DNA of 64,000 bases from a virus (IMGVR_UViG_3300028895_000881:19069-83068), one strand, 5' to 3'. Numbered from the stretch's first letter, positions 1,399 through 16,148 are shown. Program-made: numbers and translations. Notes: generated by a model from the letters alone, not told the origin.

Positions 1399-4300
1399 TC
1401 AGATCCCGTGGTAGCTGGCTGCGGTTTCGAACTCGATGGGGTTGACCCGGATGGTTGCCCCCTCCCACAGAACCGACTCGCCCGTGGGTCCGATAACGTG
1501 CAGAGGATGAGACCCCCTGCCCTGACACTGTACGATCACTCGGGCCAGTTTTTCCGCCACACCCACACCAAGTTCACGAAGGCGGTACTGGAAGGTCTCT
1601 CCCTTCTCCAGGGTAGCCACAGACAGCCGTTGTGGGAGGGCCTCGGGTGCGGAGGGGGCCTCGGGTGCCGACGAGCCCAAAGACGCTGAGGGAGCTTCCT
1701 GTGGCTTCTCCGAGGCCGTCTCCTGCGGTTGAGGCGCAGTCGCCGCTTCGAGCAGCGGTGTTTCGGGCTCAGAAGGCTTATCTGTAAGCGGAAGAGGCTG
1801 CCAGTCCGGACCGAAGAACTTTTTACCTTCTTCTTCGGTCAGGTTTTCAACAACAGGCGCATACCCGTAGACCGGCCCGAAGATTTTCACGTATTCGGCA
1901 GGCCACTGCTTGGCCTTGAGCTTGCCTGTCTCCTTGTCCCGGAACAGGCGTCCCTTCTCGTCAGTCTGGAACCCGTCAGGACGTACGCGCTTGTACTTGA
2001 AGTCCTTGAGGTCGTAGGGGACCGTCCAGTCAGGACCAATCTCGCAGTCCGTGGTCAACGGCACACGCCACTTGAGGTTCAGTAGGGTCTTGTTCCGAGT
2101 CATGATCTGCTGGAACAACTCGAGAGCTTCAGCCGCGACGCTCTTGTGCACCTCAAAAACAAGCTCGTCGTGAATCGTGATGATCATGCGAACCTTGTCG
2201 AACCACTCACGCTTTTTCACCTCACGGTAGATGAGCGCCATCGCCAGCTTGGTGATGTCGGCACTCAACCCTTGGATTGGTCCGTTAGTCGCGTTGCGCT
2301 CAGCCTTCGCCTTGAACTTCCGGTTGAACTCCATGAAGCGACGCACGTCCGCATCGGTCGGAGGCTTCGCGTCCTTCCCCGCTGCCTTCTTTGCCTCGTA
2401 CTTCTCCTTGAGGCTTCGAGCCACATCACGCTGGCTCGTCGGCAATCGAATATCCGGCAACGGGTAGTGGCGACCAAAGGCCGTCGCCACGTAGCCGTGC
2501 TTGCGACCGAAGCTTTTGGTCTGGTCCCACCACGCCTTCAGCGTCCCGTAGGTCTCGTTGAAAGTCCGGTGGTGCCGTGCGGCTTCTTGGTCGGAACAGC
2601 CCTCGATGGCACGCATGATGGCGCTCGGGCCACCGCCATAAGCCATCGCAAAGTTGGCCGACTTCGCACCCTGGCGCAGGCCCTTGCCCTCCTTCGTTGC
2701 CATGCGTTCCTCACCGTAGAAGGTGATGGCCGTGAGCGTGTGGAGGTCACCGATACGGTCGTCACCGCATTTGGGACAATAGGCTGGAGGTGCTTCCGGG
2801 GTATAGGTGCCGTCGCCACTATCGAACTCGTGGCCACAGGTGCTGCACCGGAAATACTCAGCCAGCCACTTAGGCTCACCCGACAAGATGGTAGCGATGC
2901 GGAGCTCAACACCACCAAAGTCACAATTGTGAGCCAGAATCCCGCTCACTTGCAGCCGGTGACCGTCTGGAACGGATACGTCATAGACTTCCACAGTGCC
3001 ACTGTTCGTGACCTGTTTAACGGTGTCGAACAGAAGTGGGCCGTCCAGAAGAATCTCCATCCAATCGTCGTCTAGGTCTTCTGGACACGAGAGGGCGGCT
3101 TGCAAAAGCGCACGGCTGACACGACCTTTCCGACGCCCATTGGAATGAACCCGATTGGTTTCAGCGTGACGCTGCCGCACAACAGCTTTTTTGGCCAAAC
3201 CCAACGGGATGAATTCAGTCATATCCCGGTTGCGTCCTGCACGAAGCAAAAGATCGAGTTCCAGGGTTTTCCGGGGGCTTGCCATGCCGATCCGATCTCG
3301 GAACCGTTCCAGGTTTCGAATCCCTGTGATCGACATCTCCCACCCTTCGGCGCGGCCAAAATTTGTTTCCCGCTCTACCCAAACCCTTTTGGCCTGAACC
3401 CCATGCTGAAGCAGGAGAAGCTGAACTTGCTGTGCCATCCTGCTGGAAGAAATCCAGATACGGACCCCATCCCCTCCTCGGTTGCTAACACTTCCGTCAG
3501 CATCGAAAAGCCCACGCAAAAAGGCAGCCGTCACCTCTGGCCCACCTTGAAGAACACACTCAGGCACACTCAGATCGTGTACATCCGTGGCCGCTTTACC
3601 CGTAAGAGTATTGAGCCATCGACAAAGTGGTCGAGAGTTGATCGACACATCTCCGTTTGCGCGATGTGTGAACTCCCGATCGAAAAGAGACTTAGCAGCT
3701 CGGTTCACATGGGGAAGCACCGCATCAATGTCACTACCCAAAGCAAGATTTACCGCAACCATCTCACCTTTATCGTGGGAGATCGAACCGTCTCCCAAGA
3801 ACCGCCCGAGAAACTCTGCCAAGTCTTCAGACATGTGCCGAGGCACGCGAAGGGGGTACTTTTCCTCCTGGGCGCGGGCTCGAGCATTCTTCGACCAAGG
3901 AACATCGGGAAGTTGCGAACTAACCCCTTTTGCTGTTCCTGTGGCTTGACACACCCAGTCGCCGGGGACCAGGTCCCCGGCTTCTTTCCACTCAAAGCCA
4001 CCATCCCCGGCCACAAGGATCCGGTGGTCTCGAGTCACGCGAAGATGGAACCCTTTGTTTGTCCGTACTGTAACTGTGGGCTTGGTTCCGGTGTAGCCGG
4101 ACCATTTCACCTGTTTGTACCCGCTCTCGGTGAGAACTTGGTCAGTATCCGTCACGTCTTCGACTGGAATAAGACCACGAGCAGTCGAAACCAAACTACC
4201 CTTGGCAAAACAAGCGGCCATGATCCAGTCGGGGTCACGCACCATGATGGCCTCACGGATGCGGAGCAGACACTGGGGGCGCTTCTTCTGGTACGTGGCC

Positions 4301-5718
4301 GGCGTCCCGTGCATCGGATACTTCGTGCCGCCATCGATCTCGGGTCGCTTGGAGGAAGGCGTCGTGAAGCGACCCGTATCCGTGCCGAGCTGGTTGTAGT
4401 TGACACGCAGGGTTCCGTCAGGGCCCACGTCACGGTGCAGCGAAATCAAGTACGTGCCAAGAGCCTTTTGAAGCTCACCCAGGCGCTTGATCTTCGGAAG
4501 GAACGGGTAGCGGTGTCCGTACTTGTCGTTGAGCCGGTCGATCTCCGACTGCGTCGTCATGATCTGCTCGGACTTCTCGGTGCGGCGCAGGTCGGGGATC
4601 TTGAGCTCTTCGAACAGGTAGCCAAGCTGCTCGCGGCTGAGGATGTCGTACTTCTCGGCGTGCCCGCTGGCGGTCTTGACGTAGTGACCGTCGGTGTCGA
4701 GATCGTCCATCTTCTTGCGCAGAGCTTCGCCACGCAGGTCTTCGATCTGTTTGTTGATCGGGAAGGTGGCGTCGTCGGGGATGAAATTGTCCCGAAGGAG
4801 ACGCACCCATCCGGGCTCGATGTTGCGGCCGAGGGTCTTGTTGCAAAAGTCGTAGACCTCGGTGATGCACTCGAAGTACTCGATCTGCCCGATCTGGATC
4901 AGCTCGTTGACCTTCTTCGGATCGATCCAGACACGGCAACGCTCCATCCACCGAGTCGCCGGCAGGCACATCTTTTCCAGACGGTAGACGACTTCCTGCC
5001 CTCGAGCTCGGTTGCCCTCCGGCATCACCACCTGCGGCTGTAGGACTTTGAAGAGCTGGTAGGTGCAGATGGCATCGGAGCAGGCGTACCAGATACACGG
5101 GTCCCAGGACGGGTCGAGCTCGGCGAAGTTGATCTTGCCCTTGCGCTTCTTGACCTCGTCCTTGCCGAAGAGGTCTTCGAGCTCGATCATCTCCTTGTCG
5201 AGCTCCACCTTGCTCAGGTGCTTCAACCCCTTATTGCGTTCACGAGTGTTACGAAGCCATGCGAGAATGAGTGTGTCCTCAAATTTGAGCGGGTCGTCCC
5301 AGACACCCAAAGTCGTACCGGGGTTGTGCTGGAGAAACTCCTGGTCAAATTTGGCGTTGTGGAAGATGGCTGTGGCTTCGGATTCGATGAGTCGAGCCAT
5401 CTCTTTGTTGAAGAGGGAGAGCGGCAGGTTGTGCTTCTCACCTTTCATGTGACGGACGGGGATGTAGTAGCCCCGCTTGCCGTCCGGACTGAGACACGCG
5501 CCGACGATCTTGTCCTTCGTGCCCCCCATCTCGGAGAAGTAGCGATTGTCGAGGCCCGTCGTTTCGAGGTCGAGCGCATAGAGGCCAGCTTCGATGCACT
5601 CGTCGATCACACGTTCGATGGTCTCGGCCGTGACGAGCTCCATCGTCACGTTGTTCATCCAAGGTTTCTTGGTGATGTCTGGGCGGGTTGCTTCTTCCAG
5701 AGAGTCCAGAAAGTTCAT
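1399..5718 (-). CDS. polA: Family A DNA polymerase with 3'-5' exonuclease, intein-containing
   Basis: A 1439-aa precursor; after removal of the intein (residues 503-931) about 1010 aa remain. The exonuclease domain shows Exo I DLETTGL (D50, E52), Exo II NAKFD (D125) and Exo III YACSD (Y211, D215). Polymerase motif A is DFGGVELR (catalytic D933, steric-gate E938). Motif B has R1015, K1019, F1023 and Y1027 in the O-helix pattern. Motif C is HDE (1183-1185). A CxxC...CxxC zinc-ribbon-like insertion (C958, C961, C981, C984) lies between motifs A and B. The C-terminus carries a ~200-aa extension with a Pro/Ala/Glu linker (about 1310-1365) and a small terminal domain. No 5'-3' exonuclease domain is present. 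It should be the phage replicative polymerase. The start has GAGG about 7 bases upstream of the ATG. Confidence 0.95.
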   Translation of the reverse strand: MNFLDSLEEATRPDITKKPWMNNVTMELVTAETIERVIDECIEAGLYALDLETTGLDNRYFSEMGGTKDKIVGACLSPDGKRGYYIPVRHMKGEKHNLPLSLFNKEMARLIESEATAIFHNAKFDQEFLQHNPGTTLGVWDDPLKFEDTLILAWLRNTRERNKGLKHLSKVELDKEMIELEDLFGKDEVKKRKGKINFAELDPSWDPCIWYACSDAICTYQLFKVLQPQVVMPEGNRARGQEVVYRLEKMCLPATRWMERCRVWIDPKKVNELIQIGQIEYFECITEVYDFCNKTLGRNIEPGWVRLLRDNFIPDDATFPINKQIEDLRGEALRKKMDDLDTDGHYVKTASGHAEKYDILSREQLGYLFEELKIPDLRRTEKSEQIMTTQSEIDRLNDKYGHRYPFLPKIKRLGELQKALGTYLISLHRDVGPDGTLRVNYNQLGTDTGRFTTPSSKRPEIDGGTKYPMHGTPATYQKKRPQCLLRIREAIMVRDPDWIMAACFAKGSLVSTARGLIPVEDVTDTDQVLTESGYKQVKWSGYTGTKPTVTVRTNKGFHLRVTRDHRILVAGDGGFEWKEAGDLVPGDWVCQATGTAKGVSSQLPDVPWSKNARARAQEEKYPLRVPRHMSEDLAEFLGRFLGDGSISHDKGEMVAVNLALGSDIDAVLPHVNRAAKSLFDREFTHRANGDVSINSRPLCRWLNTLTGKAATDVHDLSVPECVLQGGPEVTAAFLRGLFDADGSVSNRGGDGVRIWISSSRMAQQVQLLLLQHGVQAKRVWVERETNFGRAEGWEMSITGIRNLERFRDRIGMASPRKTLELDLLLRAGRNRDMTEFIPLGLAKKAVVRQRHAETNRVHSNGRRKGRVSRALLQAALSCPEDLDDDWMEILLDGPLLFDTVKQVTNSGTVEVYDVSVPDGHRLQVSGILAHNCDFGGVELRIATILSGEPKWLAEYFRCSTCGHEFDSGDGTYTPEAPPAYCPKCGDDRIGDLHTLTAITFYGEERMATKEGKGLRQGAKSANFAMAYGGGPSAIMRAIEGCSDQEAARHHRTFNETYGTLKAWWDQTKSFGRKHGYVATAFGRHYPLPDIRLPTSQRDVARSLKEKYEAKKAAGKDAKPPTDADVRRFMEFNRKFKAKAERNATNGPIQGLSADITKLAMALIYREVKKREWFDKVRMIITIHDELVFEVHKSVAAEALELFQQIMTRNKTLLNLKWRVPLTTDCEIGPDWTVPYDLKDFKYKRVRPDGFQTDEKGRLFRDKETGKLKAKQWPAEYVKIFGPVYGYAPVVENLTEEEGKKFFGPDWQPLPLTDKPSEPETPLLEAATAPQPQETASEKPQEAPSASLGSSAPEAPSAPEALPQRLSVATLEKGETFQYRLRELGVGVAEKLARVIVQCQGRGSHPLHVIGPTGESVLWEGATIRVNPIEFETAASYHGI
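2926..4212 (-). mobile_element. LAGLIDADG intein in DNA polymerase motif A
   Basis: This in-frame insertion encodes precursor residues 503-931 (429 aa). It begins with the splicing cysteine (CFAKGSL, block A) and ends with the conserved His-Asn (HN, 930-931) followed by a +1 cysteine of the C-extein. A TRDH block B lies near residue 563. Two LAGLIDADG-like helices, ending GRFLGDGS (about 638-645) and RGLFDADGS (about 735-743), indicate a homing endonuclease. Excision joins MAA to CDFGGVELR, placing the junction one residue before the catalytic motif A aspartate, so the polymerase should be inactive until spliced. Boundaries rest on splice-junction residues visible in the sequence. Confidence 0.92.
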
Positions 5719-8753: not shown

Positions 8754-9091
8754 CAGTCGTTCCTCAAATCTAGCGACTCCATGTCACCCTTCACAGCCTC
8801 CCAGATCTCACGATCATCGGGAGACAGGTCATCGGGTAGTGCCCGCTGGGATCGCGTGGGCTGCTTCGGAGGCTTGTCCATGATCATCCAGAGGATGGCG
8901 TAGAGGGGAAGCCCAACGCCCCACATGAGCGTCGTGAAGATGAAAGCGAGGCGCCACACGACCGTCGGGGTGCCGGTACGGATGGCGATACCCGAGCACA
9001 CACCACCCAGCTTGCCGCTCTCGAGGTCTCGGTAGAGCTTGTCCGGGCGGTCGAGCTCTCCCCGCTCGTATTTGGTCGGCAGGTTGCTCAC
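8753..9091 (-). CDS. PspC-domain membrane protein
   Basis: A 112-aa protein with a PspC-type domain: KLYRDLESGKLGGVCSGIA (residues 18-36), followed by a hydrophobic membrane segment at about 47-71 and a positively charged, then acidic, cytoplasmic-looking tail. In hosts PspC is an inner-membrane protein of the phage-shock response, which senses envelope damage and binds PspA/PspB. GTG 9091 overlaps the upstream stop as GTGA; a longer in-frame reading would overlap the previous gene by 180 bases and is out-of-frame noise. A phage copy might dampen or mimic host envelope-stress signalling during infection, which is inference. The domain assignment itself is good. Confidence 0.8.
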   Translation of the reverse strand: MSNLPTKYERGELDRPDKLYRDLESGKLGGVCSGIAIRTGTPTVVWRLAFIFTTLMWGVGLPLYAILWMIMDKPPKQPTRSQRALPDDLSPDDREIWEAVKGDMESLDLRND

Positions 9092-9456
9092 AACACCACC
9101 ACCGTCTCGAGCCATGCAAGCACGCGGCTGAAGTCTCCGTGCGTGCGGATCACACGACCGTCCTCCATCACCATGATGGCCGGGTTGTTGACGAGGTGGG
9201 GCTTCGTGTCTTTGTAGCCCTCGGTCCAGTATTGGATACCGATTTCCAGGGCTTCGGTCTCGACACCACACTCGACCGTGATCTTGGTGAAGCGATCGTC
9301 CTGGACCTCTCGGACGATCTTCTTGTAGGGCCCCGGACCATCACACCGAGCGGAGAGGACCTCGTCACCTTCGGTCAGACACCACTCTCGTAGCTTGCGG
9401 TACTCCGCAAACCAACGAAGGTCCTCGGAGATGTGCTTGTGGTTCGTGTTGCTCAT
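9088..9456 (-). CDS. Hypothetical protein
   Basis: A 122-aa protein without a recognised domain. It begins MSNTNHKHI and shows alternating strands and helices, including ITVECGVETEALEIGI and a C-terminal FSRVLAWLETVVVL helix. The ATG has AGAGGA about 7 bases upstream. It lies directly after the interrupted small membrane ORF and is GTGA-coupled to the PspC-like gene, so the two are probably made together. No function can be assigned. Confidence 0.68.
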   Translation of the reverse strand: MSNTNHKHISEDLRWFAEYRKLREWCLTEGDEVLSARCDGPGPYKKIVREVQDDRFTKITVECGVETEALEIGIQYWTEGYKDTKPHLVNNPAIMVMEDGRVIRTHGDFSRVLAWLETVVVL

Positions 9457-9467
9457 CTGACTATCCT

Positions 9468-9641
9468 CTACTCGAACAGCATTCCAAATTCGGGTTCAGG
9501 GAGCCCCAAACGCTTGGCCTCCGCGCGTTCCCGGCGCATGTAATCCTCGACCCACAGGTCTCAGTAGCGCTGCACCAGGAAGAGCACATGGCCCGTCCCC
9601 AGACTCCACAGGAGGCCGCAGAAAAAACCGGCCACGCTCAC
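9468..9641 (-). pseudogene. Small single-pass membrane ORF interrupted by in-frame TGA
   Basis: Reading from GTG 9641 (GTGA overlap with the ligase stop), a 26-codon peptide begins VSVAGFFCGLLW. It contains one hydrophobic segment and ends at a TGA (9561-9563). The same frame then continues for 30 sense codons (DLWVEDYMRRE ... EFGMLFE) to a TAG at 9468. Joined, the pieces make a natural-looking 57-aa protein with a membrane helix followed by a basic tail; a Trp codon would need only one base change. The downstream half could also be translated alone from ATG 9539, which has GAGGA five bases upstream. It may be a point-mutated gene, a base-call error, a readthrough site, or two tiny genes. Confidence 0.5.
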
Positions 9642-11596
9642 AGCAGCGCCTTCGCTTCCTCGAGGCTGATCACCTCGACACCCAGGTCTCGAGCCTTCTT
9701 GGCCTTCCCGCTGGTGCTCTTGGGGTCCTTGGCGACGAGGTAGGTCAGCCCCTTCCCGACACTGCCCTTGACGGCACCCCCAGCGTCCTCGATCTCGGCC
9801 GCGAACGCCTTGTCTCGGATGCCGGTGAAGCAGAACGAGAGACCCGCCAGCTTGCCTCCAGACACGGGAGCCTTGACCTTGACGCCGGCCGCCAAGAGAT
9901 CGTCGATGACCTTCTTGCGGCGACGGAAACCGTCTACGAAGGCGACCGCCTTCGTCTCACCCACACCCGGGACTTGAGCGATGTCGCCCACGGAGGCGTC
10001 CTCCATCTTCTCGAGCGTGTCGATGCCTGCGTCTACGATGAACTTGCACATGGACTGTCCCCACAGGTCGATGCCCAGGGCTCCTACAAACTCATGTACG
10101 CGGAGCTCCATTTTCGCCCGAAGATTCTTCATGACCTTCTTGGCGGTGCTCTTGCCGACCTTCTTGCCGGAGAGCGTGACGGCGGCGAGCTTGTCCTCGT
10201 CGAGCCCGTAGAGGTCGGACACGGACTTGACCATGCCGTTCTCACACAGGGCCTCGATGAGAGTGTCGCCCCAGTCCTTGATGTCGAGCTTCTTGACCCA
10301 GCGCTTGATGGCGCCGCTCTGCTGTGCCGGGCAGCGAGCACTGTTGTCGCACAGCAGGTACTCGCCCTTCATCTTGAGGCGGTTGCCACAGGAGGGGCAA
10401 TCGTGGGGCACGGCGAAGCGGGCGTTCTTGGAAGGCGTCAGGACCTTCTCGACGTAGGGGATCACGTCGTTGCGACGGGACACCAGGATCTTGTCGCTGA
10501 GGCCCATCAGCTTCTGCGGGCTGTCGGCCGCGAGCCGGTGGATGTTGCTGACGTTGTGCAGCGACGCCTGACTCACGGAGGCACCCGCGAGCTCCACGGT
10601 GTCGAAGTAGGCCACCGGCGTCACGCGGCCGGAGTTGCCCACCTGCCACACGATCTCGCGGAGGCGAGTCGGCTGCTTCTCGTGGGGGAACTTGAACGCA
10701 CGAGCACCCTTGGGCCGACCGTCGTGCTCGCCCAGGTGCTCCATGACCGTGAGGTCGTCGTGCTCGACCACCAGACCGTCGATCTCGTAGTCGAGGCCGG
10801 CACGGGTGGTGTTGATGTAGTCCTGGTACATGGAAGCCACGCCCGAGGGCTTGACACGCTTCCAGTTGGGCACCGTGAAGCCCAGCGCCTTGAGCAGCTT
10901 GAACTCGACGCTCTTGGCCGTGATCGGATGCTGCCGGGAGAGCACCTGGTAGCAGACCACGGTGAGGTGCTTGCACGGATCGGCATCGGACTCGCGCTTG
11001 GCGATGCCGCTGGCTGCGTTGCGCGGGTTCTTGTACTCCGGAACGTGCTTCTGGTGGTCGGACTTCTTGAGGATGATCTCGCCACGGATGAAACCCGTCA
11101 GGTCACGGGCATCCTTGACGACGCCCTTCATCAGCAGGACGTTGCGGGTGATGTCCTCGCCCGTCTCACCGTCGCCGCGAGTGACCGCCTGGACCAGCTT
11201 GCCCTTCTCGTACTTGAGACTGATGCTGATACCGTCGAGCTTCTCGCTGACGACGAGATCGCGCTTGGCCTCCTCGAGATCACCGGCACGCTCGCCCTTG
11301 GCGATCTTGTCTTCGGTGTCCTTGGCCCACTTGTCGAACTCTTCCTGGTTCTGGACCTTGAGGAGGGAGCCCATCGGAGCGCCGTGCTTGACCTTCTTCC
11401 ACTTGGTCGTCTTGGTCTTGGCACCGACCTGCTTGAAGAAAGCGTTCTTGGGGTCCAGCTCCCGGAGCTCATCCTCGAGCGCGTCGTACTCGGCGTCCGA
11501 CATCACCGGGGCGTCGTTGTAGTAGGCGTCTCGGGCCTGCTGGAGCTGCTCTACAAGGTCTTGAATCTCACGGTCGCTCATGGCTATCAGATGCAC
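9638..11596 (-). CDS. ligA: NAD-dependent DNA ligase
   Basis: A 652-aa protein with the complete bacterial LigA architecture. The Ia domain, which binds NMN, lies near residues 20-50 (YYNDAP ... SDAEYDAL). The nucleotidyltransferase active site is EKLDGIS with adenylated K119. An OB fold is followed by a four-cysteine zinc finger (C400, C403, C416, C422), helix-hairpin-helix repeats (about 435-575, with VPGVGETKA) and a C-terminal BRCT domain (about 578-652). It seals nicks at 3'-OH/5'-phosphate using NAD+, joining lagging-strand fragments. The start is probably GTG 11596 with GGGGAG just upstream; an ATG at 11581 is the alternative. Most phage ligases are ATP-dependent, so a full-length NAD type is notable. 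Confidence 0.96.
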   Translation of the reverse strand: MHLIAMSDREIQDLVEQLQQARDAYYNDAPVMSDAEYDALEDELRELDPKNAFFKQVGAKTKTTKWKKVKHGAPMGSLLKVQNQEEFDKWAKDTEDKIAKGERAGDLEEAKRDLVVSEKLDGISISLKYEKGKLVQAVTRGDGETGEDITRNVLLMKGVVKDARDLTGFIRGEIILKKSDHQKHVPEYKNPRNAASGIAKRESDADPCKHLTVVCYQVLSRQHPITAKSVEFKLLKALGFTVPNWKRVKPSGVASMYQDYINTTRAGLDYEIDGLVVEHDDLTVMEHLGEHDGRPKGARAFKFPHEKQPTRLREIVWQVGNSGRVTPVAYFDTVELAGASVSQASLHNVSNIHRLAADSPQKLMGLSDKILVSRRNDVIPYVEKVLTPSKNARFAVPHDCPSCGNRLKMKGEYLLCDNSARCPAQQSGAIKRWVKKLDIKDWGDTLIEALCENGMVKSVSDLYGLDEDKLAAVTLSGKKVGKSTAKKVMKNLRAKMELRVHEFVGALGIDLWGQSMCKFIVDAGIDTLEKMEDASVGDIAQVPGVGETKAVAFVDGFRRRKKVIDDLLAAGVKVKAPVSGGKLAGLSFCFTGIRDKAFAAEIEDAGGAVKGSVGKGLTYLVAKDPKSTSGKAKKARDLGVEVISLEEAKALL

Positions 11597-11634
11597 GGAC
11601 TCCCCGACCGTTTTACACAGCCAGGGGCAGAAAT

Positions 11635-11684
11635 CGCCGAAAAGGCGGTTGGTCGCTGTTCTGGCCTCCGCGCTTTTTGCGCGG
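11635..11684 (-). terminator. Two small hairpins in gap before ligase gene
   Basis: The 93-base gap downstream of the 95-aa gene holds two perfect inverted repeats: CCGCGC-5-GCGCGG (11668-11684, six-pair stem) and CGCC-5-GGCG (11635-11647). On the minus strand the second is followed by ATTTCT. They could attenuate or terminate transcription, or protect the ligase mRNA 5' end. Neither has a strong U-tract, so a terminator role is tentative. Confidence 0.35.
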
Positions 11685-11689
11685 AAACG

Positions 11690-11977
11690 TCACTCTTCCA
11701 CAGGATCGGACAAGTTGGGTGTCGTCAGGTAAGACCCGTTACCGATGGTCCACGATACCTTGGTGAGCCATTCCTGGTCCTCGCAGGCGTTGAACAGGTC
11801 CTCCGACCGCAGGTAGTCGAAGACCTGGAGCCGCTCGGTACGAGCGGCCTGTTGCCACAGGCTGAAGAGCATCTCGACAACGGGCTGTTCTTTCTCGAGA
11901 GCCCGGTCGGTTCGCTCGGCACCAAAGACCTTGTCCAGCGCCTCGACGAATTTGTACGGGTAGTCAGACTCCGACAT
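11690..11977 (-). CDS. Small hypothetical protein
   Basis: A 95-aa acidic, probably mostly helical protein (MSESDYPYKFVEALDKVFG ...). It contains an ALEKEQPVVEMLFSLWQQ helix and an ERLQVFDYLRSEDLFNAC segment. No known domain is recognised. It overlaps the end of the upstream gene by 14 bases. AAGGAG lies about 13 bases before the ATG, which is further than ideal. It is followed by a gap with hairpins and then the ligase gene. Confidence 0.62.
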   Translation of the reverse strand: MSESDYPYKFVEALDKVFGAERTDRALEKEQPVVEMLFSLWQQAARTERLQVFDYLRSEDLFNACEDQEWLTKVSWTIGNGSYLTTPNLSDPVEE

Positions 11978-12599: not shown

Positions 12600-13127
12600 C
12601 TATTCGGACTGATCCCCGCCAAATTGCCGAAAGAACCGAGAGGCGCCCCCGGTGTCCCCGTAGGTGACCACAGGTGTGCCCTCTGGGCGGCTCTCGGCCC
12701 CGTAGGCCGACGCCCGGTTGCCCCCTTGGTCCTTCGAGCTCGAACGCTTCACGGCCCCTGTGCCGCTCGTGAGCTCGCCGCTCTGGCGGTCCAGGGACGC
12801 CACTGGACACTCAGGCTCGCACTCCCAGTCGGGGATGGTCCCCATGCCATCCTCATCGGCGTAGGTCATGTTGGGCATCGTCTTCTTCTCGGTCTCCGAG
12901 AAGATAGTCCGGCCGCCGCTGTTCTCTCGGTGCGCCGTCCCAGTGGGGACCTTCCGTTCGCCAACGATCTTGCACCCATCACGGTGCGTCAACATCACGT
13001 TCGGAGGCCATCTCTTCTTGTCCCCGATGCGGGCGGCATCAATGTTGAGCGCACCCGCTTCGTACTCCACGACGTTCCTCGTGGTGCTCCCCTTGAAGGG
13101 CTTTCGAGCGATGGTGATAACGCGCAT
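12600..13127 (-). CDS. Orphan DNA-methyltransferase middle module, paralogue of next gene upstream
   Basis: A 175-aa protein beginning MRVITIARKP and containing EYEAGALNID (about 21-30) and RWPPNVMLTH, followed by a cysteine pair region (ECEPECPV) and ending SRFFRQFGGDQSE. These are landmarks of the middle part of phage N4/N6-type DNA methylases: RKP, then GALNID, then RWPANV, then ASRFFY. The DPPY and SAM-binding FxGxG motifs are both absent. The first ~35 residues are a close paralogue of the start of the next gene upstream (MRVVTVSRKP). It stops exactly where the family would continue to the SAM-binding part. It could be a remnant or a target-recognition subunit. Confidence 0.72.
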   Translation of the reverse strand: MRVITIARKPFKGSTTRNVVEYEAGALNIDAARIGDKKRWPPNVMLTHRDGCKIVGERKVPTGTAHRENSGGRTIFSETEKKTMPNMTYADEDGMGTIPDWECEPECPVASLDRQSGELTSGTGAVKRSSSKDQGGNRASAYGAESRPEGTPVVTYGDTGGASRFFRQFGGDQSE

Positions 13128-14314
13128 CAGAGCTCGAACAAGTCCTCGACCCCGATGGGGCCTTCGTCCTCTTCTTCAGCCTTCACGTCGGAGACAATCT
13201 CGACCCCATCCCAAGCACACACAGCGCGGTCCCAATGCCGCACTCGCTGGTCCGCGATAGTCAAGTAGCTCTCGCTCTGCTCGATGCCGATGAAATCGTG
13301 CTTCGTGTGCAGGGCCGCGATACCCGTCGTCCCAGAGCCCAGGAAAGGATCGACCACCGGACCTTGATCCGTTGGGAGGTTTTGCAGGAGTGCTTGCATC
13401 ACCCCAACAGGCTTGACCGTCTCGTGGCTGTTCTGCACGAACCGACCCGTGGCTTCATCCTCATGCTGTTCGACTCCCGCGTGCCGTTCCTTACCCGAGG
13501 GCTTGGCGACGTAGTAGAAGTCATCCGGCTGATCGAGCAGCGCCACCGCGTCTCGGATCTCGTACCCGAAGTCCTCGACGGAGCACGCACCCGCGTAACC
13601 CGTGGGCTCATCTTCAGGAGAGATGAGAAGGAGGTGCGCTCCCGGACGAAGCACTCGGTCGAGCTCTTTCATGTAGGGTCCAGGGTCGCCCACCGTCACC
13701 ACCCCGTGCACGGTGCTGTCGTCGTACTCAGAGAAGCCCACGTCCTCGAGACTGTCTCCGACGATGAGCACGGGTTCGCAGCCGGGCGGCGGAGCGATGA
13801 GCGTATACAGGTAGTCCCAGAGCTCCTCGGGGAGATCGTTCATGGTGTTCCTCTGCGCTTGTTTGAAATACCGACCCTCGAGGGGGCCCAAGACCGTGTG
13901 CGGGCACCCTTCGGCGCACTCCCACATGAGGAGCTCCTCATCCGGGAACACTTCGGTCTCGAACTCATGACCAGCCCCCCCACCGAAAGGTTTGGCCCCA
14001 TCGACGAAACGGTTGATACTATAGCCCCCGATTGTTCGCGTTCCTCGAAGTTGACACCCAGGTCGGTGCATAAGGATCGCGTTCGCGGGCCAACGACCCC
14101 GTCGGTCACCGCCGCGAGGCCCGGGGGTTGCAGCGAAGTTGGTACTCCCACGCTCGGTGTACCGACGCGCCTGGCTCTCTTCCCCTTGACGTGATCCACC
14201 TTTGCCAGGGCGCAGCCTTGAGCCATCGATGTTCAACGCCCCAGCCTCGTACTCGACGACATTGTGCGTCGTCCCGCCTCGACACGGCTTGCGACTGACG
14301 GTGACGACCCTCAT
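13127..14314 (-). CDS. DNA methyltransferase C-terminal half with SAM-binding motif
   Basis: A 395-aa protein. Residues 1-90 hold the phage-methylase middle module (SRKP 7-10, GALNID 25-30, GRWPANAI 73-80). Residues 160-265 resemble a methylase alpha/beta segment in which the expected DPPY is degenerate (GDPGPY, 209-214). The C-terminus has FYYVAKPSGKER (266-277), HETVKP (297-302) and the SAM-binding motif I DPFLGSGTTG (322-331), then a GIEQ strand. This is the permuted order typical of beta-class N4-cytosine/N6-adenine methylases. The intact DPPY is supplied only by a separate gene (14529-16148), so the two proteins may form one enzyme. ATGA and TGATG overlaps couple it to both neighbours. 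Confidence 0.82.
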   Translation of the reverse strand: MRVVTVSRKPCRGGTTHNVVEYEAGALNIDGSRLRPGKGGSRQGEESQARRYTERGSTNFAATPGPRGGDRRGRWPANAILMHRPGCQLRGTRTIGGYSINRFVDGAKPFGGGAGHEFETEVFPDEELLMWECAEGCPHTVLGPLEGRYFKQAQRNTMNDLPEELWDYLYTLIAPPPGCEPVLIVGDSLEDVGFSEYDDSTVHGVVTVGDPGPYMKELDRVLRPGAHLLLISPEDEPTGYAGACSVEDFGYEIRDAVALLDQPDDFYYVAKPSGKERHAGVEQHEDEATGRFVQNSHETVKPVGVMQALLQNLPTDQGPVVDPFLGSGTTGIAALHTKHDFIGIEQSESYLTIADQRVRHWDRAVCAWDGVEIVSDVKAEEEDEGPIGVEDLFEL

Positions 14315-14532
14315 AGCCCCTTGATGCCCTCAAGGAACTCAGCCCGGTTGTAGCGGTTCCACAGGTCTTTCAAAACTTTGCCGCGCCAAACGATGATCTC
14401 GGAGTTTTGGACGATGCCGCCTGGAATGGGAGGCCACCCGTCAGCCGGCTGCACGTGAAGCGGAATGCCAGGGTCAGTCACTCGCCACGATCCACGAGCG
14501 CAGTAGTAGACGCGGTTGTCGTCCTCCATCAT
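14311..14532 (-). CDS. Small protein inserted between methyltransferase halves
   Basis: A 73-aa protein starting MMEDDNRVYYCARGS. GGAGG lies eight bases upstream, and the ATG overlaps the stop of the upstream methyltransferase half as ATGA, so the start is well supported. Its own stop overlaps the next start as ATGA. It contains a proline-rich middle (GWPPIPGG) and a C-terminal helix (LKDLWNRYNRAEFLEG). No domain is recognised. Its place exactly between the DPPY half and the SAM-binding half of the methylase suggests that it either inserted there or bridges the two subunits. Confidence 0.65.
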   Translation of the reverse strand: MMEDDNRVYYCARGSWRVTDPGIPLHVQPADGWPPIPGGIVQNSEIIVWRGKVLKDLWNRYNRAEFLEGIKGL

Positions 14533-16148
14533 GATGGCTTCCTCCCAACAACGACGGGCTCCCACGCGGGCTTGAGCGCAGTGCCGTACCCGTCCCAGAG
14601 TTTGGCTAGTTCCGTCGCCGGCACCGTGATCGGCACGTCCACCGCGACCTGCTTGGCCCCTGTGCCGTAGGCACCCACGCCCTTGCCACCTTCGTCGGTC
14701 GTCTTGCGGACATGCTTCTTGCCGCGCACGAGATCGTTGAGGTTGTCTCCTCCAACCCCACGCTTGTGGCCGATGACTTCTCGTGTGGCACCGGCTTGCT
14801 TGTCGATACGCTTCGAGATGTTCGTGGATTTTGGGAAGCCGCTGTTGCCGGTGATGAAAATACGACCATTACGCCGAGCGACGAAAGCACCCGTCGGAAC
14901 GCGCACACACCACACATTTCCTACGTATCGTTGCCGATCGTGTTTAGTAAGGTGACGCCGCTGAAGCTGTGTCTGTGGGTTCTCATGGAGACTCACACAG
15001 TTCTTCTTGTCATTGATACGTGCCTGCCAGCCCATCATGTGGACGAGGGTTTGATACCACTCCCGGTCTGCTGGATCTTTTTGATAGAACTGCTTGTTGA
15101 CTTCGGACCCATCCCCGCACAGGGCCGTCCACATGAACACGTCTTTCTCCTCCAGGGTCATGCGCCAGAGCAGGTCATAGGTGGGGTGTTTATTGGGAAG
15201 GTCCTTGCGCACACGATCGGCCACGTCACCCGTAAAGAACCACGTGTGCTCGACGTAAGGGCGCCCGCGATAGCTGCGCTCCCGGGTGTAATGCTTGTGT
15301 CCGGGCACGAGCCGTTTCAGGAGAGTATCGATCATGTCCACGTGTTCGTGACCTTCACCTCCGACGCGAGTGCTCTGGTAGATACGAACCCCGTTTCCAA
15401 TTTGGTCGAACCCACCTTCGGTCCAGATCCACGCGAGAAGTTCGGCGTAGTGCGGGGTCTCATCAAGACCCGGACCTTCGTGGTACCCCGATAAAGGAAG
15501 ATTAATGGGGTTCCATCTGTTGATCTCTGCGGCTTCTACCACCGACCAGCTAGGCTCAAAAAAAGCCACACGGATACCATCCTGCACCTGCCGGATACGG
15601 CTTCGTTTGTAGACCCGGTGGTTCGGCGTGAGCATCTGGTCCGTGTTGTCGTTCACGAAACACACCATTTCACCGTCAAAGGGCGCGAGCGTTTTCTCTT
15701 CCACGGGCATCAGTGTGAGGACCTCCGTGTTGGGGTCCCAGCACATAACACGTTCACCCTGTTGCACCTGAGTTCCGAGTTTCCACCCCATCTCAGTCAA
15801 GATTTCAGAAGACTCATCAAGGCACCCGTAGACCCATGCCTCGAGTCGCACATCCTCAAACTGAGCTTGCTTCACGGCTCGCACCATCTTGTGGAACGTG
15901 CGGGTCCCTCCAAAAGCTTTGATGATGCCGTCGGGTCGGAGCTTGGACTTGACCAGGTCCCAGAACTTCACATCGAAAGCAATTCCGGTCGCATCCCACT
16001 CCTTCCCCATGAACCCCTTGCCCGAGGACTGCGTGAGGTCGTAAGGAGGATCGCAAACAAAGGCGGCCACCGACCCGTCCTCGAGCTCTTCAAGCCGCTC
16101 GCGACAGTCTCCCAGCATCAGCCATACGTAGCGTTTCATGTCAGTCAT
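14529..16148 (-). CDS. DNA methyltransferase N-terminal half (DPPY motif), intein-containing
   Basis: A 539-aa precursor; the exteins total 212 aa. The N-extein has the catalytic motif IV DPPYDL (33-38) and a FGGTRTFHKMVRA segment. After splicing, AWVYG joins SGFPKSTNISK, a sequence normally contiguous in phage methylases, and the extein ends ALKPAWEPVVVGRKPS. In full-length relatives that point leads directly into the GALNID module and then the SAM-binding FxGxG motif. Both are missing here and are encoded by the downstream gene at 13127-14314. The protein would transfer methyl groups to adenine N6 or cytosine N4, probably only as a complex. The start overlaps the helicase stop; an ATG at 16139 is possible. 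Confidence 0.85.
   Translation of the reverse strand: MTDMKRYVWLMLGDCRERLEELEDGSVAAFVCDPPYDLTQSSGKGFMGKEWDATGIAFDVKFWDLVKSKLRPDGIIKAFGGTRTFHKMVRAVKQAQFEDVRLEAWVYGCLDESSEILTEMGWKLGTQVQQGERVMCWDPNTEVLTLMPVEEKTLAPFDGEMVCFVNDNTDQMLTPNHRVYKRSRIRQVQDGIRVAFFEPSWSVVEAAEINRWNPINLPLSGYHEGPGLDETPHYAELLAWIWTEGGFDQIGNGVRIYQSTRVGGEGHEHVDMIDTLLKRLVPGHKHYTRERSYRGRPYVEHTWFFTGDVADRVRKDLPNKHPTYDLLWRMTLEEKDVFMWTALCGDGSEVNKQFYQKDPADREWYQTLVHMMGWQARINDKKNCVSLHENPQTQLQRRHLTKHDRQRYVGNVWCVRVPTGAFVARRNGRIFITGNSGFPKSTNISKRIDKQAGATREVIGHKRGVGGDNLNDLVRGKKHVRKTTDEGGKGVGAYGTGAKQVAVDVPITVPATELAKLWDGYGTALKPAWEPVVVGRKPS
14844..15824 (-). mobile_element. Intein in DNA methyltransferase
   Basis: This in-frame insertion encodes residues 109-435 (327 aa) of the precursor. 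It starts with C109 (CLDESSEIL), contains TPNHRVY (T174, H177; block B) and ends with FITGN (N435) before a +1 serine. The penultimate residue is Gly rather than His. Degenerate LAGLIDADG helices appear at about 236-247 (AELLAWIWTEGG) and 337-348 (VFMWTALCGDGS), so homing activity may be reduced. The splice restores WVYG-SGFPKS, matching uninterrupted methylases of this kind. Boundaries follow the extein logic and terminal residues. Confidence 0.88.

Follow-up and report, generated by a model that had tools for sequence, protein, structure and literature searches.

Does this viral locus encode one DNA methylase distributed over several proteins, or is it what remains of a single broken gene? 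The window, a 64-kb stretch out of an 83-kb IMG/VR virus record, carries the motifs of such an enzyme on separate open reading frames. A preliminary description had offered two readings, a multi-subunit methylase with exchangeable recognition modules or a decaying gene. Its coordinates and motifs were all reproduced, with every gene on the minus strand:

17724-16141, minus strand: DnaB-like helicase, first in transcription order and followed by A, B, C and D
14529..16148, minus strand: gene A, catalytic half with an in-frame intein, 539 aa, ending in WEPVVVGRKPS and a stop
15825..16148, minus strand: N-extein of A, 108 aa, bearing the catalytic DPPY; matches PHROG 67 and 6025, DNA methyltransferase
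16041..16052, minus strand: catalytic motif IV, DPPY, in A
14844..15824, minus strand: intein in A, 327 aa, CLDESSE ... TPNH ... FITGN
14532..14843, minus strand: C-extein of A, 104 aa, SGFPKS ... WEPVVVGRKPS
14311..14532, minus strand: gene B, 73 aa, between A and C
13127..14314, minus strand: gene C, a T module fused to a pseudo-methyltransferase, P, 395 aa
13859..14314, minus strand: T module of C, MRVVTVSRKP ... GALNID ... RWPAN ... RYFKQ
13130..13840, minus strand: P module of C, methyltransferase-like, motif IV dead, motifs X, I and II intact
13673..13711, minus strand: pseudo motif IV of P, VHGVVTVGDPGPY, DPPY lost
13409..13426, minus strand: motif X of P, HETVKP
13322..13351, minus strand: SAM-binding motif I of P, DPFLGSGTTG
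12600..13127, minus strand: gene D, a second, stand-alone T module, 175 aa, MRVITIARKP ... GALNID ... RWPPN ... GASRFF

The genes overlap at their junctions, with ATGA at A/B and B/C and TGATG at C/D. A and P each occur once in the window's record and T modules twice; the record is a fragment, and more A or T genes may exist.

The preliminary description held that DPPY is intact only in the gene at 14529-16148, which ends in VVVGRKPS. Both points were reproduced, but the 327-aa intein that accounts for the 539-aa length of A had been overlooked. This insert comprises residues 109-435, between WVYG and SGFPKS, and has the features of a class 1 intein (Cys1, a TPNH block, and Asn435 followed by Ser), with a penultimate Gly where the usual His is missing. 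It has no family match in Pfam or NCBIfam, so its identification rests on its own motifs and its homologues. Homologous insertions occupy the same site in L009, L091, L005 (a single-chain enzyme) and Mycobacterium phage Bobi, and L090 and L012 have no insert there, which makes the element polymorphic for presence and absence. Its sequence appears to be an allele of the methylase intein known from actinophages, where such an intein was described by Gosselin et al. 2023 (PMC9957025). Spliced A is predicted to be a 212-aa catalytic half that carries DPPY and ends in WEPVVVGRKPS. The SAM-binding motif I is absent from gene A in the window sequence.

That motif lies in gene C, which begins with MRVVTVSRKP and has DPFLGSGTTG at 13322-13351, as first described. 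The degenerate GDPGPY reported for this gene is also present, but it is not a simple point change, and it sits in a complete methyltransferase-like stretch, in which a pseudo motif-IV half is followed up by motifs X, I and II. The third ORF (12600-13127) does repeat the RKP/GALNID/RWPPN module and ends in GASRFF. D and the T module of C are similar in sequence (phmmer E 1e-15), and each also hits PHROG 3008, 'DNA methyltransferase', so the repeat is not due to chance. In Pfam, the window's methylase genes match only the N6_N4_Mtase family and no C5 family, and D has no match to HsdS or to any other entry. The 73-aa gene said to separate the DPPY gene from the SAM-motif gene is the ORF at 14311-14532. 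Conservation of this gene, B, does not extend beyond the nearest relatives (L090, L091 and L099), so it is probably not a core part.

Ordinary phage enzymes had been said to hold these parts in one chain, and 133 of the fetched ORFs with matches to A and T indeed contain both DPPY and motif I. Their motifs run in the order DPPY half, SGFPKS, WEPxxVxRKP, GALNID, RWPAN, ASRFF, HPTVKP, DPFxGSGTT. The beta-class order, with DPPY before motifs X and I, is found in these single-chain relatives, in the natural fusion L178 and in A and C jointly, and in no single window protein.

Several relatives have architectures of their own. Single-chain enzymes with four and with two tandem recognition modules occur at L007 (5325-8307) and L006 (5811-7695), and this type is possibly a multispecific N-methyltransferase. 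Four tandem methyltransferase genes occur at L173 (5436-10761; LR756508.1, a 484-kb uncultured phage), and the third copy has lost DPPY and a normal motif I and kept its recognition region. LR756508 was excluded as a carrier of the split system because these copies are of the single-chain type. Mycobacterium phage Bobi (L175) has a long A-T ORF (2449-4516) with the motif-I end in a separate short ORF (4616-4928), which is gene 75, annotated DNA methylase.

The single-chain form is the common one, the parts in the window add up to a single ordinary enzyme and DPPY is gone from P, all of which would fit a single-chain phage methyltransferase that was broken by stops and partial duplication and is now non-functional. 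However, the window belongs to a family, present in many large uncultured phages, with the same division into A, T and P. It recurs in 26 phage contigs; these do not amount to 26 independent lineages, as some of them, L106 and L108 for instance, are close relatives. Motif I is kept in P in 26 of 26 and DPPY in none. The motif-IV region of P often reads VHGxxTxGNPxP, and HPTVKP and DPFxGSGTT are retained, as is the GIE region after them. A-type genes were found at 24 of the 26 related loci; DPPY is present in 33 of 35 A genes and motif I in none, and the two genes without an in-frame DPPY (L091 and L112) have it in the adjacent frame. No isolated phage with P is among the matches listed, and one scan of bacterial genomes gave a match to the motif-I region only.

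Related phages with one intact gene, against which the window would show clear indels, had been named as the finding that would speak against a split methylase. Instead, the nearest relatives, L090 and L091, whose helicase is about 85% identical to the window's, retain the same split. Sequence comparison also indicates that A, P, T and D are under purifying selection: comparison with relatives at 43-71% amino acid identity gives dN/dS values of 0.12-0.26 (P), 0.11-0.21 (A, where dS is estimable), 0.24-0.25 (the T part of C) and 0.12-0.40 (D), all rough because several pairs are saturated at synonymous sites. Together with the overlapping start and stop codons, the selection on these genes and the recurrence of a dead motif IV beside an intact motif I in all 26 contigs contradict decay, to which we give hardly any weight. 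The same comparison supports the multi-subunit alternative, with the split, the degenerate DPPY and stand-alone modules all found among the 26 contigs.

The way in which the parts are joined varies. T and P are fused in the window and in L090, L091, L094, L099, L102, L112, L179, L189, L191 and L207, and they are separate in L012, L097, L100, L101, L103, L106, L108, L113, L177, L181 and L243. L178 has a natural A-T-P fusion in one 577-aa ORF, plus two further A genes. P is always present in one copy per locus, and A reaches six copies and T seven (six A and three T in L181, two A and seven T in L243, three A and two T in L108).

Other insertions and neighbors were observed at these loci. The P genes of L191/L095, L111, L113, L185 and L243 have an intein-like insertion in motif X, beginning with C and ending with HN between HP and TVKP. 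A similar one in P of L189 lies within motif I, beginning with C and ending with N between DPFMG and SGTTG. In either case the insertion falls in a functional site that is conserved in P's SAM-binding part. A Dam-like gene with the repeated stretch HVSDAGxGVQAIGxIP lies between A and T in L012 (5625-6695). The DnaB-like helicase of L090, a 618-kb relative, has 951 aa (9001-11856) versus 526-527 aa in the window and L091, and the extra length is apparently an inserted intein.

In the A gene of L091, L112 and L185, DPPY and one further codon are followed by a short gap that starts with a stop. No such gap occurs in the window's A gene. A search of the collection with the pattern DPPY-codon-T(A/G)(A/G)-gap-FMxKxWD returned 22 loci; six have Trp codons rather than stops, and the 16 with a stop represent 13 distinct genes (L266, which is L091; L277, which is L112; L260, which is L185; L256, L257, L258, L259, L265, L267, L270, L272, L273 and L275). 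In all 13, the amino acid encoded just before the stop is encoded again by a codon at or near the gap end; five of these codon pairs are identical and eight synonymous only. The stop codon was part of the search pattern and the codon match was not. The gaps are 8 to 16 nt long and fall in all three phases. If the gap is skipped, DPPY[GED] and then the family motif are restored. Most frames downstream of the gap stay open as far as the usual end of the gene or of the fetched sequence, and the inteins inside several of these genes are intact; in L275 the frame resumes close to the gene end, and this gene looks shortened. An insertion with a three-base target duplication would account for the identical codons and not for those that are only synonymous. 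The pattern suggests that the gaps are candidates for translational bypassing, and their signature resembles that of T4 gene 60.

The L178 fusion was modeled with AlphaFold from an alignment of the fusion, nine T-P rows and 42 single-chain rows, and gave a pTM of 0.79, with the A core strands and the motif-I half of P mostly at pLDDT 90-97. In Foldseek, this model matched complete, solved beta-class methyltransferases (193-350 aa) across 518-570 alignment columns at a target TM of 0.54-0.75; where chains of these same proteins aligned across just 228-248 columns, target TM was 0.31-0.35. The longer span must jump about 280-300 residues, as many as T and the pseudo half occupy together, so the domain recognized would be A plus the motif-I half of P. 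From this span we infer that these two parts form the methyltransferase domain of the L178 model, in which the pseudo half of P would not replace A, although the 42 single-chain rows in the alignment favor a composite arrangement.

Window C was modeled without A and without single-chain rows. Its pseudo half then scored 86-98 and its motif-I half 54-83, and its shallower alignment may account for part of the latter's low confidence. C alone showed no methyltransferase fold (target TM at most 0.28, with a 68-column piece superposed at 3.6 angstrom), so the beta-class fold was recovered for L178, with a target TM of up to 0.75, and not for this protein by itself.

The confident pseudo half and the complete methyltransferase-like chain of P could also mean that P is an inactive partner like METTL14, which holds DNA or stabilizes A while the SAM site comes from another protein and no A-P composite forms. 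P does resemble the inactive subunits of METTL3-METTL14 and MTA1-MTA9, and a separate, apparently complete methyltransferase (L003) lies in the same record outside the window. However, motifs X, I and II are kept in every P, and a scaffold would not need them. No other conserved motif-I half accompanies A at all loci, and the L178 model, judged by its alignment span, joins A to the motif-I half of P. We therefore regard an A that draws its SAM site from elsewhere as quite improbable.

The reading that we favor, and consider likely, is a three-part beta-class N-methyltransferase in which A supplies DPPY, P binds SAM and T confers specificity. A, C and D would be subunits of one DNA-modifying enzyme, and its DPPY motif points to m6A as the most likely product. 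Once its intein is spliced out, A would provide the DPPY-bearing strands, and the P part of C would provide motif X, the SAM-binding motif I and motif II. The A half and the motif-I half of P would then build one composite active site, as motif complementarity, homology to the single-chain enzymes, the L178 fusion and the models suggest. The motif-IV half of P itself would be catalytically dead and perhaps kept on in a scaffold or partner role.

The T modules, fused in C and free in D, would read the target and alternate on the same catalytic core. Their first ~35 residues are common, their middles differ and the longer ones share an ASRFFKQ end, as expected of target-recognition modules. Copy number and variability are what suggest that they may be exchanged. 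As specificity subunits they would allow one phage to modify several sequences, presumably against host restriction.

Free T genes might instead be silent cassettes that recombine into the T-P gene and switch specificity at the DNA level, and the T copies of L243, with near-identical ends and variable middles, look as recombining cassettes would. Against this, the start codons of free T genes often overlap upstream stops and D is under purifying selection. In L012, L100, L101 and L103 no T was found other than a free gene, so T must act in trans there. We consider silent cassettes improbable as the role of free T genes, although cassette recombination and subunit exchange are compatible with each other.

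The three-part enzyme might further be combinatorial, one shared P pairing with any of several A and any of several T, a proposal to which we give a little less than an even chance. If so, a phage like L181 or L243 could make many specificities from few small genes and gain new ones module by module. If the three-part reading is true, this is a natural enzyme that divides catalysis, cofactor binding and DNA recognition among different proteins and entrusts recognition to small swappable subunits. Such a system would illustrate how large phages can match many restriction systems, and it would offer a natural source of modular methylation tools. It would also allow the idea of a pseudo-enzyme that keeps its cofactor site after losing catalysis to be put to a direct test with three short genes.

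Our literature search on split and multispecific N-methyltransferases found no description of a divided beta-class enzyme that combines free T modules with a cofactor subunit of pseudo-enzyme type. The nearest parallels each share part of the arrangement. METTL3-METTL14 and MTA1-MTA9 pair an adenine methyltransferase with a methyltransferase-fold partner without catalysis, and their active subunit has both the SAM site and the catalytic motif. In the window, by contrast, the SAM motif belongs to the dead partner and is missing from the active half. Multispecific phage C5 methyltransferases, such as those of Bacillus phages, carry several recognition domains on one core, much as L006 and L007 have two and four tandem modules. 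They belong to another chemistry class, whereas the window and its split relatives have some of their modules as separate proteins.

M.AquI and M.EcoHK31I are C5 methyltransferases of two polypeptides (PMC3404938), and they too have the conserved motifs of one methyltransferase on two natural, assembling chains. They are of the cytosine-C5 class and have neither free recognition modules, a dead catalytic duplicate nor multiple copies; the window's methylase genes match the N6_N4_Mtase family only and do not belong with them. BcgI-like enzymes have specificity subunits of their own (PMC4081073), and Type I and BcgI-like systems resemble the window in placing recognition on a separate, exchangeable protein. 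Catalysis in these systems falls to a whole gamma-class enzyme that, unlike A, includes a SAM site, and their S subunits have two recognition domains and are unrelated to T in sequence. With no HsdS match in D and no motif I in A, the window's system falls outside that group.

A further parallel is the Dorothy_75 / PopTart_63 family of single-chain phage methylases (PHROG 67, 498 and 3008; PMC9957025), whose members share the sequence family, the motif order and the intein site in A. They hold DPPY, the recognition region and motif I in one gene, whereas the window has them on separate proteins, and its P has an extra, dead motif-IV half relative to that family.
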